Positions 4,440-13,458 of a stretch of 20,467 nucleotides of DNA are shown piece by piece. A model generated the notes under the pieces. The model made no database searches, was not told where the DNA came from, and worked only from the letters and a program-made list of their open reading frames with translations. Where the stretch lies: positions 1 through 20,467 of IMG/VR virus record IMGVR_UViG_3300009370_000211; one strand, written 5' to 3'. This stretch comes from a virus. Both the position numbers and the translations under genes were made by a program. Numbering within the stretch: position 1 is the first letter of the stretch; each line of letters starts with the position of its first letter.

Positions 4440-4769
4440 ATGGCAAACACATTTAAGAATAGAACTCTCAGGGCAGTAGGAACATCACCAGTAGATGTTG
4501 GTGCAGTCGTTGCTGGTAGTACCGAGACTACACTAATAGGGATGACTCTGGCTAACATAACCTCTGGTGTTATATCGGTTACTGCAACCCTGAATGATGG
4601 AACGAACACGACCCACATAGTTAAGGACGCACCCATCCCGACTGGTGGTTCGCTAATTCTTTTGGGAGGGGATCAGAAGGTGGTGCTTATGACTGGAGAT
4701 AAGATTATTATAACGTCAAACACAGCATCATCTTGTGATGTGATAATGAGCTTTCTGGAGATTACATAA
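4440..4769 (+). CDS. Small conserved phage virion protein
   Basis: The protein is 109 residues, starting MANTFKNRTLRAVGTSPVDV. It is a single beta-sandwich-like protein with the signature GGDQKVVLMTGDKIIITS and ending MSFLEIT. I recognise this as a common small structural protein encoded beside tail fibres in marine myo- and podophages ('MANTFKN...GGDQKVVLxxGDxIxVTSS...LSxLEIT'). Its exact place in the virion is not known to me. An AAAGGA Shine-Dalgarno sits about 6 bases before the ATG. The stop is shared with the next start (TAATG), which couples it to the fibre gene at 4769. Confidence 0.75.
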   Translation: MANTFKNRTLRAVGTSPVDVGAVVAGSTETTLIGMTLANITSGVISVTATLNDGTNTTHIVKDAPIPTGGSLILLGGDQKVVLMTGDKIIITSNTASSCDVIMSFLEIT

Positions 4770-7561
4770 TGAGTTACTTAGGTCGTAAAGGAGCACCAGC
4801 AGGATTAACCAGTGCCGACATACCTGACGATAGTATAACGGCTTCTAAGATTGCATCAGGTGCAATTACTGCGGCAGATGTTGCGGCAGATATGGCAACA
4901 CAAACGGAACTGGATGCACTCGCATATCAGGGAGAGCCACACATAATCCCCGGTGTTCTGTATCCTGCGGTTGCTAATATAATGGTGGATGGTTCTACTG
5001 CATTATCTGCAAGCACAACTGGCCCGAATAGTTCTACTGTTGCTTCAAGTAAATATGGAACAGTGCAGTCAGACGGAAGGATGTACTACTACACAGACAT
5101 CAAGGGAAGTAAGCCGATAAAAGACCCAAGAATTGGTGCTCATTTTGGGAGTCAGAGGTATAAAACTAAATCATTACAACTTTTAGAACAGGAAACTGCA
5201 ACACATGGAGAGGATGTTTACAGTATTGATGGTCGAGAATGGATGAGAGCATATGGGCCATGGACAGTAGCAAATAATACATATGGTTGTGGTATAGCAG
5301 ATACAGGAACTTCTGCTCATTATTATTTAGAAGTAGTCGGTTATTTTTCAGATGTAAGTGGGTTAATCAATCAAACAGTAGACAGTACAGATAGAGGATA
5401 TGTTTACAAAATTGATAGTGGATCGTTTTCAGCAGAACAAACAACATATGAAGGTGGTGCTAATACTCCTCTTGGTGGTAGATATGTTGATGCTTCAAGT
5501 TTAATTTCTATTGTTACAGGACTAACATTAGGTATTCATACAATTACAATTAGATCAAATGCTACTGCAGATTATGTAGCTTGTAAAGGCATCGAACTAA
5601 TAGCCCAAGACACCACATCAACTGCAACTAAATCACAGATACAGATACCCTCACAGAATGTAGTTTCCTACGGAAAGAAGTTCACAGTCTCAGGCACACC
5701 ACATTATAATCCATTTGCAACTAAGGGTGATGGTTCAGCATCAACAATACCAAACAATACTACAGGAGATAGTGTTGCAACTGGTTGGGCAGGGTCTACT
5801 TCTGCATATTGGGATTCCTCATTAGATACTGCAACATCACTTGGACTTACAGCTTGGGAAGAAGGAGGAGCATTTTATAGACCAGTAAATGGTGGTAGAG
5901 TTATAAAATGGGTAGACTCAACTGGAACTATCAAGACTTCAGTAAACATGATGCCACCTTCTGCAAAAGCAATAGGTTCTCATAGTGGAGATGCAACACC
6001 TACTGGTGCAACTAATTGGTCAACTCAATATTTACCAATATTTTCTACAGGAGCAATAGACCATTCACAAGCAGAGGTTGCCAAGACCTTCCATTGGAGA
6101 GAGTTTGGAAATGGTGCAGCTAATGGAGGAACAGGAGCTACCAATTATGCAGATGCAAGTATGCTTAGTAGTACAGCAGATGATATTGCATACGTTATGG
6201 ATGATGGATTAACTGGTTTATCTGGTGATGATGTTAATGAAAATACTAGAGATATTGCAGTAGGTAATTCTGGTGATGGTTGGTTTATTACTTTTATTGG
6301 TACAGGACTAACATTCGATACTTCAGACAACTATTCTCCAATGACTTTTGGAACTTCTGATGATTATGACTTTATTATAGATGCAGTTACAGTTAAAGAA
6401 TGGACAAATGGAACGACAATGCAGAAAATTCAAAATGTTTGTCAAAATCTACCCTATGGAACTCATGTATTCCAAATGAAAACTAATGCTAATGCAAGTG
6501 CCCAATGGATGAGATTATTTGATGTAACCTTCCACCAACCCAAGAAACCACCAATCCCAGAGGATGCTGTAGTCATTGCAGACTATATGCTGATGGCAGA
6601 TTTTGTTGCTCAGTCAAGTGCTGGAATTGAATATATCAGTAAAGGTGTTAGGAGATGTAGTTCTTCCAGAGATCACTTTTATGATAATGGAAGTCCCTCT
6701 TTAGGACTTGATCCAGCTAATGCAAATGGAGGAATAAAAGTATCACAAAGTAGTTCTTCTACAACACTTGTAAGAAATATTGGTTTTGGTATAAATTTTG
6801 TCAGAAGTACATATGGACAAACGGCTCGGAGTCAAAGTTGGTATGTAAATGATACAGGGCATTCATCCGCAGATGCTAAAACAGGAGTAGGTAGTGCATG
6901 GGGGTCATTTGCTGATCTTGATGCTAATATAACTTTAGGAAATAACATACTAGATACTTATGGAGCTACTGCCGATACGAATAGTGTTATTCATAGTGCT
7001 ACGGATACCGCCTCCCCAATCCATACATCCTCACATTATCAGACCTTTGAAACGCCCTTCCTACATGAGTTGGTAGGAGGTGACAGAAACATGGAACAGA
7101 CTAATCTAGTGGTTACTCCAGATGGTAAGACATGGGATGAGGTTACAAGGGATACGAGTTATCTTTCTAGTGATATATGTATTACTACAACAACAGATAC
7201 TACTGCAACTTCTGCTTCAACTGTTCAAATTTTTGATGAATGGAGAGGAAAAGGATCAACTGAAAATAGAAGGAATTTCCAAAATAAAGATTTTGCCATA
7301 GCTTATGATCGAATGATTTGTTTAGTAGATGGAGATTATGAAATTCAAGCTCATACGTTAAGAAATGCAACTGTAGCTACTTGTCAAATTATGATAAATG
7401 GTGCTGTCCAAGTTAGTGGTCATGGGATTAGTGGTGGTGGAGATTATAACTCAGTTCAAACTTTATTTTATGTTAATTTACAACGAGGAGATTACATTCA
7501 ATGTAAAGGGGCTTGGTATAGTGCCTTCACCCATAATTTATTTCAAATTAGAAGGGTATAA
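4769..7561 (+). CDS. Large tail fibre / receptor-binding protein with C1q-like end
   Basis: The protein is 930 residues. The N-terminus begins MSYLGRKGAPAGLTSADIPD and passes into a typical fibre stalk start (DDSITASKIASGAITAADV). Two beta-sandwich segments look related to each other: one ends near residue 277 (LTLGIHTITIRSN...ACKGIELIAQ) and the other near 590 (LPYGTHVFQMKTN...LFDVTFHQ). The last 90 or so residues (FAIAYDRMICLVDGDYEIQA ... GDYIQCKGAWYSAF ... FQIRRV) resemble a C1q/TNF-type jelly roll, a frequent phage tip fold. Base composition is mosaic: AT-rich blocks alternate with stretches like the rest of the genome. It is followed at once (TAATG) by a tail assembly chaperone, which supports the fibre call. 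Confidence 0.7.
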   Translation: MSYLGRKGAPAGLTSADIPDDSITASKIASGAITAADVAADMATQTELDALAYQGEPHIIPGVLYPAVANIMVDGSTALSASTTGPNSSTVASSKYGTVQSDGRMYYYTDIKGSKPIKDPRIGAHFGSQRYKTKSLQLLEQETATHGEDVYSIDGREWMRAYGPWTVANNTYGCGIADTGTSAHYYLEVVGYFSDVSGLINQTVDSTDRGYVYKIDSGSFSAEQTTYEGGANTPLGGRYVDASSLISIVTGLTLGIHTITIRSNATADYVACKGIELIAQDTTSTATKSQIQIPSQNVVSYGKKFTVSGTPHYNPFATKGDGSASTIPNNTTGDSVATGWAGSTSAYWDSSLDTATSLGLTAWEEGGAFYRPVNGGRVIKWVDSTGTIKTSVNMMPPSAKAIGSHSGDATPTGATNWSTQYLPIFSTGAIDHSQAEVAKTFHWREFGNGAANGGTGATNYADASMLSSTADDIAYVMDDGLTGLSGDDVNENTRDIAVGNSGDGWFITFIGTGLTFDTSDNYSPMTFGTSDDYDFIIDAVTVKEWTNGTTMQKIQNVCQNLPYGTHVFQMKTNANASAQWMRLFDVTFHQPKKPPIPEDAVVIADYMLMADFVAQSSAGIEYISKGVRRCSSSRDHFYDNGSPSLGLDPANANGGIKVSQSSSSTTLVRNIGFGINFVRSTYGQTARSQSWYVNDTGHSSADAKTGVGSAWGSFADLDANITLGNNILDTYGATADTNSVIHSATDTASPIHTSSHYQTFETPFLHELVGGDRNMEQTNLVVTPDGKTWDEVTRDTSYLSSDICITTTTDTTATSASTVQIFDEWRGKGSTENRRNFQNKDFAIAYDRMICLVDGDYEIQAHTLRNATVATCQIMINGAVQVSGHGISGGGDYNSVQTLFYVNLQRGDYIQCKGAWYSAFTHNLFQIRRV

Positions 7562-10924: not shown

Positions 10925-10935
10925 AAGGAGTAAAG

Positions 10936-11025
10936 ATGAAAGAGAGACAGTTAATGGAGGCTCTGATATCTTACGGAATGGAAACCCCCAAGATAACCAG
11001 AGCTTATGAAGGACAGATTAACTGA
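10936..11025 (+). CDS. Very small ORF with strong leader (29 aa)
   Basis: The protein starts MKERQLMEALISYGMETPKI and ends TRAYEGQIN. AAAAGGAG precedes the ATG by 6 bases, which is the main reason to believe it is translated. It is soluble, one helix by appearance, and has no known family. It lies between a membrane protein and the Tat-type lysin. It could be a regulatory leader peptide whose translation affects the hairpin that begins at its stop codon; this is speculative. Confidence 0.5.
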   Translation: MKERQLMEALISYGMETPKITRAYEGQIN

Positions 11026-11042
11026 TAAGGTCTTATCCTTAT
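11025..11042 (+). promoter_or_regulatory. Small hairpin before the TTG start of the lysin
   Basis: ATAAGG (11025-11030) pairs with CCTTAT (11037-11042) around a six-base loop. An overlapping GATAAG/CTTATC palindrome is an alternative fold. The only Shine-Dalgarno-like sequence for the TTG at 11044 (AAGG) is inside the stem. The stem is short and AT-rich, so it is weak. It may modulate initiation, or it may be chance. Confidence 0.25.
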
Positions 11043-11043
11043 T

Positions 11044-11514
11044 TTGCGTAGAAATTTTATTAAGACCTCTATCCTTGCAGGGATAGGTACGCTCTCTGAA
11101 GTAGCCCTTGCCCACTCAGTTTTAAAGTGGGAACCACTGCACAACCAAAAGGAATTGACCTGTAAGTGTGGGTGCGGTGAGAGCAACATGGATGAAGACT
11201 TCATGGAAAGACTTCAATTACTTAGGGCAGAATGGTATAATGAGAATACAAGAGTATTAAAAGTAAATTCGGGATTTAGGTGTAAGAATCATCCAATAGA
11301 GAGAAGGAAAAAAATTGTAGGGCCGCACACTAAAGGCAAGGCAGTGGACATCCTCATCTCAGGGAAAGATGCCACAAGGTTATTCAAGATGGCAAAGAAG
11401 TACATGAGTGGTATTGGCTACAACTTCAAGGGCAGAAGACGCTCACACTTTCTCCACGTGGATTCACTAACACCTGAAGAGGCAGAAAGACCAGCGGTAT
11501 GGAGTTACAGATAA
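11044..11514 (+). CDS. M15-family peptidase (endolysin) with probable Tat signal
   Basis: The protein is 156 residues and starts with TTG. Residues 1-23 (MRRNFIKTSILAGIGTLSEV-ALA) look like a twin-arginine signal: RRNFIK, a moderately hydrophobic core and an AxA cleavage site before H24. The mature part fits Peptidase_M15_3: TCKCGCGE (39-46), SGFRC (76-80), then PHTKGKAVDI with likely zinc ligands His95 and Asp102, and HFLHVD with the third ligand His138. Such enzymes cut peptide bonds in peptidoglycan stems. The next in-frame ATG (residue 49) would lose the conserved CGCG segment, so the TTG start is preferred; an in-frame stop lies at 11026. Export by the host would let it act without a holin. 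The 3' end overlaps the lipoprotein gene. Confidence 0.75.
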   Translation: MRRNFIKTSILAGIGTLSEVALAHSVLKWEPLHNQKELTCKCGCGESNMDEDFMERLQLLRAEWYNENTRVLKVNSGFRCKNHPIERRKKIVGPHTKGKAVDILISGKDATRLFKMAKKYMSGIGYNFKGRRRSHFLHVDSLTPEEAERPAVWSYR

Positions 11515-11849
11515 GAATATTGATTGTAGTATTAATGATACTACTTACTGGGTGCGTAACTGTACAACCAAAGGTAGAGAGAGTATACTCAAATAATTTT
11601 ACTACGCTAGAGATACGCTCATTCTGGACAATGTGTCAGCAGGCGTTTCTTCAGAAGAATCCGTATACTACTCCAAACATCTTGATTAGATACTGCGATT
11701 GCTACTCTGATCTGGTTAGAAGGACATACAAGGATGTGGCAGAACTTAATGCTAAAGCATCAAATGAAAATCTAACAAAAAAGTTAATAGTCGAGTGCAA
11801 CATGAAACTTCAGCAGGAACAGGCACTCGCTGATCCTGCATCAATATAA
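11499..11849 (+). CDS. Lipoprotein in lysis region
   Basis: The protein is 116 residues. The signal MELQIRILIVVLMILLTGC has a clear lipobox (L16-T17-G18-C19) with Val at +2, which favours outer-membrane sorting. The mature part has Cys residues in FWTMCQQAF, RYCDCYSDL and VECNM, enough for disulfides, and helical stretches. I do not recognise a named family. It overlaps the upstream lysin by 16 bases. Its place suggests an outer-membrane spanin-like partner, but it is long for a typical o-spanin and not Pro-rich. A superinfection-blocking or envelope-modifying lipoprotein is an alternative. Confidence 0.7.
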   Translation: MELQIRILIVVLMILLTGCVTVQPKVERVYSNNFTTLEIRSFWTMCQQAFLQKNPYTTPNILIRYCDCYSDLVRRTYKDVAELNAKASNENLTKKLIVECNMKLQQEQALADPASI

Positions 11850-11858
11850 AGGAGACAA

Positions 11859-12161
11859 ATGGCACAATTAGTAAAACCTGACGGCCCTCAAGTCGAGCAG
11901 GAATATGTTAAATACCAATTTAATTGGAGAGCACCCAGTGAAAAAGAGTGGCAAAAAATGGAAGTTGTTGGACACCGCTATTATGAAGAAAATAATAGAA
12001 TGGTTCTATTTAAAGAGAACGGTGGAATTTTTGAGATACCAAACTGGAACGAGCATTACTCTGATCTTGGAGAAGATTGGGCTAATAAAATCAAAGAAGC
12101 AGAAAAAGAATTAGCCAACCAAGAATCAGAGGAGCCTAATGCAAACACAAGACCTAATTGA
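11859..12161 (+). CDS. Unknown soluble protein (100 aa)
   Basis: The N-terminus is MAQLVKPDGPQVEQEYVKYQ. A Trp/Tyr-rich middle follows (FNWRAPSEKEWQKMEVVGHR, then IFEIPNWNEHYSDLGEDW) and a strongly acidic helical tail (KEAEKELANQESEEP). There are no signal or membrane segments. AAAGGAG stands 4 bases before the ATG, so it should be well expressed. Its end overlaps the next gene by 23 bases. No family is recognised. Confidence 0.65.
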   Translation: MAQLVKPDGPQVEQEYVKYQFNWRAPSEKEWQKMEVVGHRYYEENNRMVLFKENGGIFEIPNWNEHYSDLGEDWANKIKEAEKELANQESEEPNANTRPN

Positions 12162-12438
12162 CATAGTACAAAACCTAGGAGCACCAGTAGTATACAGCTT
12201 ATTAGCCTTGTGGTTTATTAAGTTCCAGTTCGTTAAAGCAGAAGATGCGGCTAACAGAGGCCGTGAAGAAAGGCAAAGACTTATAGATGATTTTACAAAA
12301 AGGGACGCAGAGAATGATAAACGTGCGTTTGAATTAGCTCAACATAGTAATGAAGCAATGAATAGAATGGCCTCAAGTTTGGAGGCAAATACAAAGTCGA
12401 TGGATAATTTAATTGCGACATTATCAATTAAACATTAA
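12139..12438 (+). CDS. Membrane-anchored coiled-coil protein, holin-like
   Basis: The protein is 99 residues. A single membrane segment at about 13-32 (LGAPVVYSLLALWFIKFQFV) is followed by a long charged helix rich in Arg, Glu and Asp (AANRGREERQRLIDDFTKRD onward). Positive charges crowd just after the membrane segment and the N-terminal flank is acidic, so the positive-inside rule puts the helix in the cytoplasm. That favours a BhlA/UviB-type holin-like protein over an inner spanin, whose coiled coil should be periplasmic. GAGGAG precedes the ATG within the upstream gene. The stop is shared with the next start (TAATG). Confidence 0.6.
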   Translation: MQTQDLIDIVQNLGAPVVYSLLALWFIKFQFVKAEDAANRGREERQRLIDDFTKRDAENDKRAFELAQHSNEAMNRMASSLEANTKSMDNLIATLSIKH

Positions 12439-12531: not shown

Positions 12532-12828
12532 ATGACAGTAAATGAGAAGGTACAATTAGTTAGATTTTATGCAAGATTTGTTATTGCTGTAGTAGCAATG
12601 GCAATCTTCAGCTACATAGTACATATGATGCTGGTAGCCAGTGATGAAATGACTTCATCATCCAAGGACTTGCTAAATATTTTAATAGGGGCATTCATCC
12701 CTATCCTAGCAGGCATTGCTAAGTTTTATTTTGAATCAGGCGGTGATCTTCACCAAGAACCAGAAGATAAGTTACTGCCTCCACCCAGAACCAATGGAGA
12801 AGAAGATGAATCCAGCTTTACTAATTAA
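12532..12828 (+). CDS. Holin candidate with two membrane helices
   Basis: The protein is 98 residues. A basic N-terminus (K6, R11, R15) leads into helix 1 at about 16-36 (FVIAVVAMAIFSYIVHMMLV). A short acidic loop follows, then helix 2 at about 48-67 (LNILIGAFIPILAGIAKFYF) and a hydrophilic acidic tail. N-in/C-in with two helices is the class II holin topology. It lies in the lysis region upstream of an M15 lysin. Length and charge pattern are right for a holin. The family is not named here and the call rests on topology and context. Confidence 0.65.
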   Translation: MTVNEKVQLVRFYARFVIAVVAMAIFSYIVHMMLVASDEMTSSSKDLLNILIGAFIPILAGIAKFYFESGGDLHQEPEDKLLPPPRTNGEEDESSFTN

Positions 12829-12994
12829 TGTAATACAAAGTCTAGTAGTTGATAAAGCACAAGACCTAGCAGTAGAGCACGTGCAGAAGGCTATAGACGA
12901 TAATCTCAGCGACAACCAGAAGAAGCTACTGGATGCTGTAGTCGAGGAGATGCCAGATAATCCGTTCAAGTCTATGAAAGAATTATTTAGCTGA
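12806..12994 (+). CDS. Small helical protein between holin and lysin (62 aa)
   Basis: The protein starts MNPALLINVIQSLVVDKAQD and continues as amphipathic helix (LAVEHVQKAIDDNLSDNQKK) to NPFKSMKELFS. The first 15 residues are mildly hydrophobic. The start at 12806 is chosen because GGAG (12796-12799) sits 6 bases before it; earlier in-frame ATGs at 12716 and 12794 have no leader and lie deeper inside the holin gene. It overlaps the holin by 23 bases and its stop overlaps the next start (TGATG). I have the impression that similar small proteins occur in other marine phages but know no function. Confidence 0.65.
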   Translation: MNPALLINVIQSLVVDKAQDLAVEHVQKAIDDNLSDNQKKLLDAVVEEMPDNPFKSMKELFS

Positions 12995-13458
12995 TGCAGT
13001 TAAGTAAGAACTTTGCATTACGAGAACTAACCGCTAGTCAGACAGCTATAAGAAAGGGGATAGATAACAGCCCCAATCAAGAGCAACTGATTAACTTGGC
13101 TGTACTGACAGCAAAGATACTACAACCCTGCAGAGAGAAGTTTGGCCCTATTAATATTAATTCAGGGCTGAGGGTGTTAGCTTTGAACCGTGCAATAGGT
13201 TCAGGAGATAAGAGCCAGCACACTAAGGGAGAAGCGGCTGACTTTGAAACTAACTCAGTTAGTAACTATAAGTTGGCAGACTGGATAGAAGCAAATTTAG
13301 AATTTGACCAGTTAATCCTAGAGTATCCGGGTAAAGACCCTAGAGATGGATGGGTGCATTGCTCATACAATAGGCTAGGTAACAGAGGTCAGATACTGAC
13401 GGCAGTTAAGGAAAGGGGCAAGACAGTGTACAAGAAGGGGCTACGTCCTAATGGCTAA
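12994..13458 (+). CDS. M15-family peptidase (second endolysin)
   Basis: The protein is 154 residues with no signal peptide. The family pattern is complete: NFALRELTAS near the start, ININSGLRV (SGLR 57-60), N65, SQHTKGEAADFE with His76 and Asp83, then FDQLILEY, GWVHCSY with His122, and LGNRGQILTA. This is the usual cytoplasmic phage M15 peptidase (Peptidase_M15_3 type), which cleaves peptidoglycan peptides after a holin opens the membrane. It shares TGATG with the upstream gene and lies close behind the holin candidate, the normal holin-lysin order. It differs clearly from the lysin at 11044, so the two are not a recent duplication. Confidence 0.85.
   Translation: MQLSKNFALRELTASQTAIRKGIDNSPNQEQLINLAVLTAKILQPCREKFGPININSGLRVLALNRAIGSGDKSQHTKGEAADFETNSVSNYKLADWIEANLEFDQLILEYPGKDPRDGWVHCSYNRLGNRGQILTAVKERGKTVYKKGLRPNG

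Follow-up and report, generated by a model that had tools for sequence, protein, structure and literature searches.

Two exit routes from the cytoplasm are known for phage lysins: holins and the Sec pathway, the latter by means of signal or SAR sequences. The signal-bearing lysins that use the host translocon, such as P1 Lyz and the enzymes of phage 21 and Mu (gp22), are Sec exported and membrane tethered; these SAR endolysins are well documented, with basic residues preceding a weakly hydrophobic segment (PMC9239132). For phage Mu, hijacking of the Tat pathway has only been speculated upon, by way of a different protein in which the motif is reversed (PMC9239132). ChiX of Serratia marcescens, a LAS-type L-Ala-D-Glu endopeptidase, is reported to be naturally dependent on a holin yet functional when a Tat signal replaces that holin (PMC9527704, PMC5778951); in this engineered case, fusion of the endolysin to a Tat signal restored function without its holin (PMC9527704). 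Searches of open-access literature turned up no phage lysin that naturally carries a Tat signal. Tat signals are known on bacterial M15 enzymes, however. MepK (YcbK) of Escherichia coli, a periplasmic peptidoglycan L,D-endopeptidase of the M15_2/DUF882 type, carries a predicted twin-arginine (RR) signal, so the combination of an M15 fold and a Tat signal is not new to biology.

Here, we describe a phage gene in which this combination appears to occur. The window, i.e., the whole stretch of DNA that was analyzed, is an IMG/VR virus record of 20,467 bases. The gene and its two predicted segments are as follows:

11044-11514, plus strand: M15 peptidase ORF of 156 amino acids with a TTG start.
11044..11112, plus strand: predicted Tat signal peptide (residues 1-23, MRRNFIKTSILAGIGTLSEVALA) with predicted cleavage after Ala23, from motif, conservation, and position-specific scoring matrix (PSSM).
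11113..11511, plus strand: predicted mature M15 peptidase domain, from profiles, invariant residues, and weak LAS-peptidase fold matches.

The ORF, its N-terminus, and its assignment to M15 were all confirmed as given in a preliminary description of this DNA. The protein matches PF08291 (Peptidase_M15_3; E 3.7e-8, 33.9 bits versus a curated cutoff of 23.2), as do all seven aligned members of its group, and PHROG 894 (endolysin; E 5.7e-21). A zinc-site pattern of His-x6-Asp and a later HxD is present, with H95, D102, H138, and D140 invariant across relatives, and the SGxR motif (S76-G77-R79) is likewise invariant. An AlphaFold2 model of moderate confidence (mean pLDDT of 73) gave the LAS peptidases 1lbu and MepA as its best PDB matches and ChiX at rank 10, all of them weak (E 0.098 or worse). 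The gene is predicted to encode an M15 (LAS-type, zinc) peptidoglycan peptidase. The phage M15_3 endolysins of PHROG 894, from marine, Vibrio, and Pelagibacter phages, belong to the same catalytic family, but most of the viral relatives inspected begin 7 to 12 residues ahead of the FxC motif and lack a signal. The preliminary description had considered a Tat-exported M15 enzyme unusual, which is wrong for the family as a whole: E. coli MepK and the phage protein are detectably related in pairwise comparison (E 1e-6), and the NCBIfam MepK model NF053624 also reaches the phage protein, although at 25.1 bits (E 1.3e-5) the match falls below the 185-bit cutoff. MepK is a host housekeeping enzyme, whereas the phage protein has a CxCGC motif, a TTG or CTG start, and a place in a phage lysis cassette.

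Scans of viral contigs retrieved ten other distinct sequences carrying the N-terminal extension (L001 to L007, L027, which is identical to L028, L029, and L073). The extension, whose loss in homologues would have spoken against a signal, is retained by all ten, which are 53 to 98% identical. These relatives are close kin within one marine-type phage group, and the number of independent lineages is therefore small, at about six. Annotated phages were rejected as carriers: among the 60 matches listed of 149 records, two kinds extend N-terminally (Vibrio phage D184 and Proteus phage PM116), but the extension lies inside the preceding gene and the annotated M15 protein begins later. Scans of genome contigs for the M15 gene and for a 1,029-residue virion protein found neither in bacteria or prophages, and no plasmid match was obtained. 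Separately, two long relatives, L085 and the 61.6-kb L087, share a giant protein of ∼3,400 residues (4106-14278 in L085 and the matching part of L087). In L087, a tRNA-Tyr gene (4554-4638) overlaps the start of a serine-recombinase ORF (4596-5318), which is possibly an attachment site and a sign of a temperate relative.

The twin arginines at residues 2 and 3 are invariant in all 11 sequences, including where the Arg codons differ synonymously (CGT AGA, CGT AGG, or CGC CGG). Every one of the 11 N-termini matches the default TatP regular expression, RR.[FGAVML][LITMVF] (PMC1182353), and RRxF[IV] is kept throughout except in L029, where RRSLI still fits. The hydrophobic core drifts between lineages, while Ala23, at position -1, and Glu19, at position -5, are invariant, and Lys7 is present in most sequences. 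The preliminary description had asked whether homologues keep RR and AxA. The arginines and the alanine at -1 hold, but the -3 position is degenerate, being Ala, Ile, or Gln (the last in L004). In codons 2 to 23, dN/dS is 0.10 to 0.23 in most pairs, rising to 0.48 to 0.69 in two comparisons involving L027; these low ratios indicate that the signal segment is translated in the M15 frame.

The Tat-like N-terminus is also more than chance would give. When 534 dereplicated ORF N-termini of the viral contigs analyzed are screened, 15 match the TatP expression; if the core must also be uncharged and followed by an [AVSGTIL]xA site, only 9 remain, all of which belong to the gene group under study. 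With a PSSM built from 23 published predicted Tat signals of E. coli (PMC7549933), N-termini of the M15 gene occupy ranks 1 to 5 among 1,203 ORF N-termini from the same contigs, while those of L006 and L029 score low (5.0 to 5.5, under every E. coli positive). The motif RRNFIK is shared with E. coli HybA, from the same published list (PMC7549933). The distance from RR to the cleavage site is 20 residues, versus 19 to 30 in E. coli Tat signals, and the n-region consists of one residue only. The sole Pfam match of the N-terminus is PF10518 (TAT_signal), under its cutoff (E 0.058, 13.8 bits versus 22.7); the N-terminus of MepK has no PF10518 match either, and this model is therefore insensitive to such signals.

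An alternative, which we consider unlikely, is that the N-terminus is a Sec signal or a signal-anchor-release domain, that RR is merely a basic n-region, and that the enzyme is threaded unfolded through Sec. The existence of SAR endolysins of broadly this composition speaks for it, as does the core of L027, whose hydrophobicity of 2.66 lies slightly above the E. coli Tat range. By the 11-residue Kyte-Doolittle maximum, however, the cores of this gene group span 1.5 to 2.7, versus 1.4 to 2.3 for E. coli Tat signals, and the phage's own neighboring Sec-type proteins are far more hydrophobic (∼3.45). A SAR domain requires no RR, and the near-constancy of RRxF[IV] and the invariant alanine at -1 also speak against this alternative. 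SAR endolysins possess an uninterrupted, weakly hydrophobic N-terminal transmembrane domain. Here, the invariant Glu19 interrupts the segment, with Lys7 as an additional charge in most sequences, so that no transmembrane-length stretch is left, and a cleavage-type c-region follows. Taken together, the sequence evidence makes Tat targeting of the M15 protein likely, although the subthreshold PF10518 match, the low PSSM scores of L006 and L029, the Gln at -3 in L004, the invariant Glu at -5, and the one-residue n-region count against it.

A second, distant M15 group (L105/L141, L142, and L143) contains an RR stretch in frame before its domain, [YC]TRR[ET]FISG[LV]CA[ST]FLMGKYLTPNF, in an upstream region of ∼100 nucleotides. 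By eye, L141 and L143 differ at four places in this stretch, none of which changes a residue in the M15 frame, yet that frame has no start codon close by; an ATG overlaps the upstream stop in another frame, and the ATG of MGKYL comes after the motif. A dual start, a long overlapping n-region, or recoding is possible at these loci.

Initiation of the M15 gene is unusual in its own right:

11044..11046, plus strand: start codon TTG, directly 3' of a hairpin; ATT at 11041-11043 is an alternative start.

The TTG start that had been assigned from the window alone is found in 3 of the 11 sequences, but the other 8 have CTG at this position, and none has ATG or GTG. An in-frame TAA lies 15 nucleotides upstream of the TTG or CTG in all 11 sequences. 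A true start downstream of residue 24, which would remove the signal altogether, is contradicted by the lack of any conserved alternative start before the CxCGC region in the 11 sequences; isolated ATG or TTG codons occur in some lineages only, at 14, 17, 27, 31, 34, or 38. Translation must therefore begin at the TTG or CTG or at the preceding ATT. Initiation at AUU, giving Met-Leu-Arg-Arg and reducing the C/T variation to a synonymous change between leucine codons, is a possibility that we retain tentatively. The ATT is invariant and lies 10 nucleotides from the AAGG described below, and CTG starts are very rare; AUU starts are very rare as well, and a published reconstruction counted no more than a few origins of CUG or AUU starts among tens of thousands (PMC5622118). 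The invariance of ATT can also be ascribed to base pairing, as this codon lies inside the 3' arm of the hairpin.

The hairpin adjoins several translational signals:

10936..11025, plus strand: small upstream ORF of 29 amino acids (MKERQLM...GQIN), in frame with the M15 gene, with an AAGGAG Shine-Dalgarno sequence at 10925-10930, 5 nucleotides before its ATG.
11023..11028, plus strand: tandem in-frame stops TGA-TAA, overlapping the hairpin 5' arm (TAATAA in L003, L027, and L073; a single TAA in L029).
11024..11043, plus strand: conserved 7-bp RNA hairpin, GATAAGG-UCUUAU-CCUUAUU, of about -6 kcal/mol, in a single copy per contig.
11027..11030, plus strand: AAGG in the hairpin 5' arm, the only consistent Shine-Dalgarno-like sequence, 13 nucleotides ahead of the start codon and invariant in all relatives.

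The preliminary description had proposed a hairpin over the only Shine-Dalgarno sequence. This hairpin is real and conserved, although its stability is weak. Among seven sequences, all 13 compared positions of the arms are invariant, the ten bases upstream of the hairpin are all variable, and 20 of the 22 third codon positions of the signal vary; invariant positions number 13 of 13 in the arms versus 20 of 66 nucleotides in the signal (Fisher P = 2e-6). The first pair changes with the upstream stop, being G-U where this is TGA and A-U where it is TAA. In a shuffle test, the 23-nucleotide hairpin was more stable than expected (z = -2.7), whereas a 51-nucleotide fold was not (z = -0.25). The hairpin followed by NTGCG was found in 11 viral contigs, always preceding the M15 gene. 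The pattern without this start context occurs in 24 stretches, of which the 13 outside the known loci are unrelated; several of these are copies of a single repeated sequence and are not followed by an M15 gene. At 11028-11068 of the window, GGUCUUA and UAAGACC could pair into a longer alternative stem that would likewise span the start region; its 3' half is absent from the L005 and L027 types.

Function as an operator, an RNA-processing site, or a protein-binding site, with only incidental overlap of the ribosome-binding site, is improbable in our estimation. Two loop positions vary, but the conserved loop residues U, U, A, and U exceed what a plain hairpin needs, which speaks for such a function. 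The element nonetheless adjoins the start codon at a fixed distance and overlaps the upstream stop in every lineage. It has two G-C pairs only and no terminator-like U-tract, an Rfam search returned nothing relevant, and it occurs in a single copy per contig, which also led us to reject a recurrent promoter.

In 10 of the 11 loci, an upstream ORF of 15 to 32 codons, with an AAGGA-preceded ATG, ends at the hairpin; in L029, an unrelated 180-codon gene ends there instead. Each of the 11 upstream ORFs shares the frame of the M15 gene and has a stop that overlaps the conserved hairpin, so stop readthrough or ribosome bypassing could in principle yield a fusion protein. This is highly improbable: two consecutive stops are present in 10 of the 11 loci, fusion to the L029 gene would bury the RR motif, and variation at two loop positions alters the encoded residues, which means that the bridge between the two ORFs is not conserved as coding sequence. 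Instead, the sequence features of a coupled lysis gene are all present, namely, a nearby upstream stop, a ribosome-binding site in an inhibitory structure, and a weak start codon. The arrangement fits reviewed models of translation-coupled weak initiation, among them the lysis gene of MS2 and fr, whose hairpin-guarded start becomes active when the gene before it is translated (PMC12548453). In those RNA phages the coat-lysis spacing is negative, whereas here the start lies 15 nucleotides past the last in-frame stop of a mini-ORF. The hairpin and the non-AUG start look like deliberately weak, translation-coupled initiation, in which expression of the enzyme would be low.

Downstream, further genes follow:

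11499..11849, plus strand: small Sec-exported lipoprotein with four invariant Cys residues, overlapping the M15 gene by 16 nucleotides; fixed neighbor in all loci.
12139..12438, plus strand: small protein with one N-terminal transmembrane segment, a holin-like candidate from sequence, with only weak family matches.
12532..12828, plus strand: small protein with two transmembrane segments, a holin-like candidate from sequence, matching phrog_38564 (function unknown; E 2e-5).
12994..13458, plus strand: second M15 peptidase, signal-less, a canonical endolysin candidate (Pfam M15_3 E 1.4e-19; PHROG 894 E 3e-41).

At every locus, the lipoprotein gene begins 16 or 19 nucleotides before the M15 gene ends, and its product is exported, mostly as a lipoprotein. 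Profile searches gave no confident family for the four-Cys protein, and a PDB search with its helical model gave no significant match; it is a possible partner of the Tat-M15 enzyme. The second M15 peptidase is ∼53% identical to pelagiphage endolysins and was found in all contigs tested. The two M15 enzymes match each other only at E 0.02 in pairwise comparison and so do not represent a recent duplication. It had been proposed that the first enzyme is delivered without a holin. This is partly apt for that enzyme, but the cassette also holds the signal-less endolysin and at least two small membrane-protein genes, and the presence of the former means that lysis cannot rest on holin-free delivery alone.

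Conceivably, the predicted exported enzyme does not serve lysis but, jointly with the four-Cys lipoprotein, alters the wall of the infected host, for instance to prevent superinfection or to aid release. The canonical endolysin encoded alongside it, its greater resemblance to MepK than to that endolysin, and the fixed overlap with an exported lipoprotein gene are consistent with such a role; its position within the lysis cassette and the match of its domain to an endolysin family, PHROG 894, argue for lysis. We regard wall modification as possible without favoring it.

The explanation that we favor as a whole, with moderate confidence, is that of a Tat-exported, folded M15 lysin under low, coupled expression, accompanied by a second, bulk endolysin. 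Ribosomes finishing the upstream ORF would open the weak hairpin that holds both the stop of that ORF and the SD-like AAGG, and would then reinitiate inefficiently at a non-AUG codon, either UUG or CUG or perhaps the AUU in front of it, keeping the level of M15 enzyme low. The enzyme would be exported folded by the host Tat translocase and cleaved near residue 23. In this way, active wall hydrolase could enter the periplasm in small amounts ahead of the holin or without depending on it; the signal-less M15 would act as the bulk endolysin. A more specific proposal is that a phage lineage has evolved lysis by two enzymes, of which one, an M15 lysin, travels folded via Tat and has its timing and dose set not by a holin but by obligatory non-AUG (CUG, UUG, or AUU) reinitiation at a conserved hairpin; we offer this more doubtfully.

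If true, a natural Tat-exported lysin would constitute a third exit route besides holins and Sec. As a folded enzyme would reach the wall before the holin fires, its dose would have to be throttled, and a conserved hairpin with a non-AUG start is the sort of throttle to be expected for such a lysin. Gene callers that reject CTG miss or truncate genes of this kind, and more of them may therefore exist unseen.
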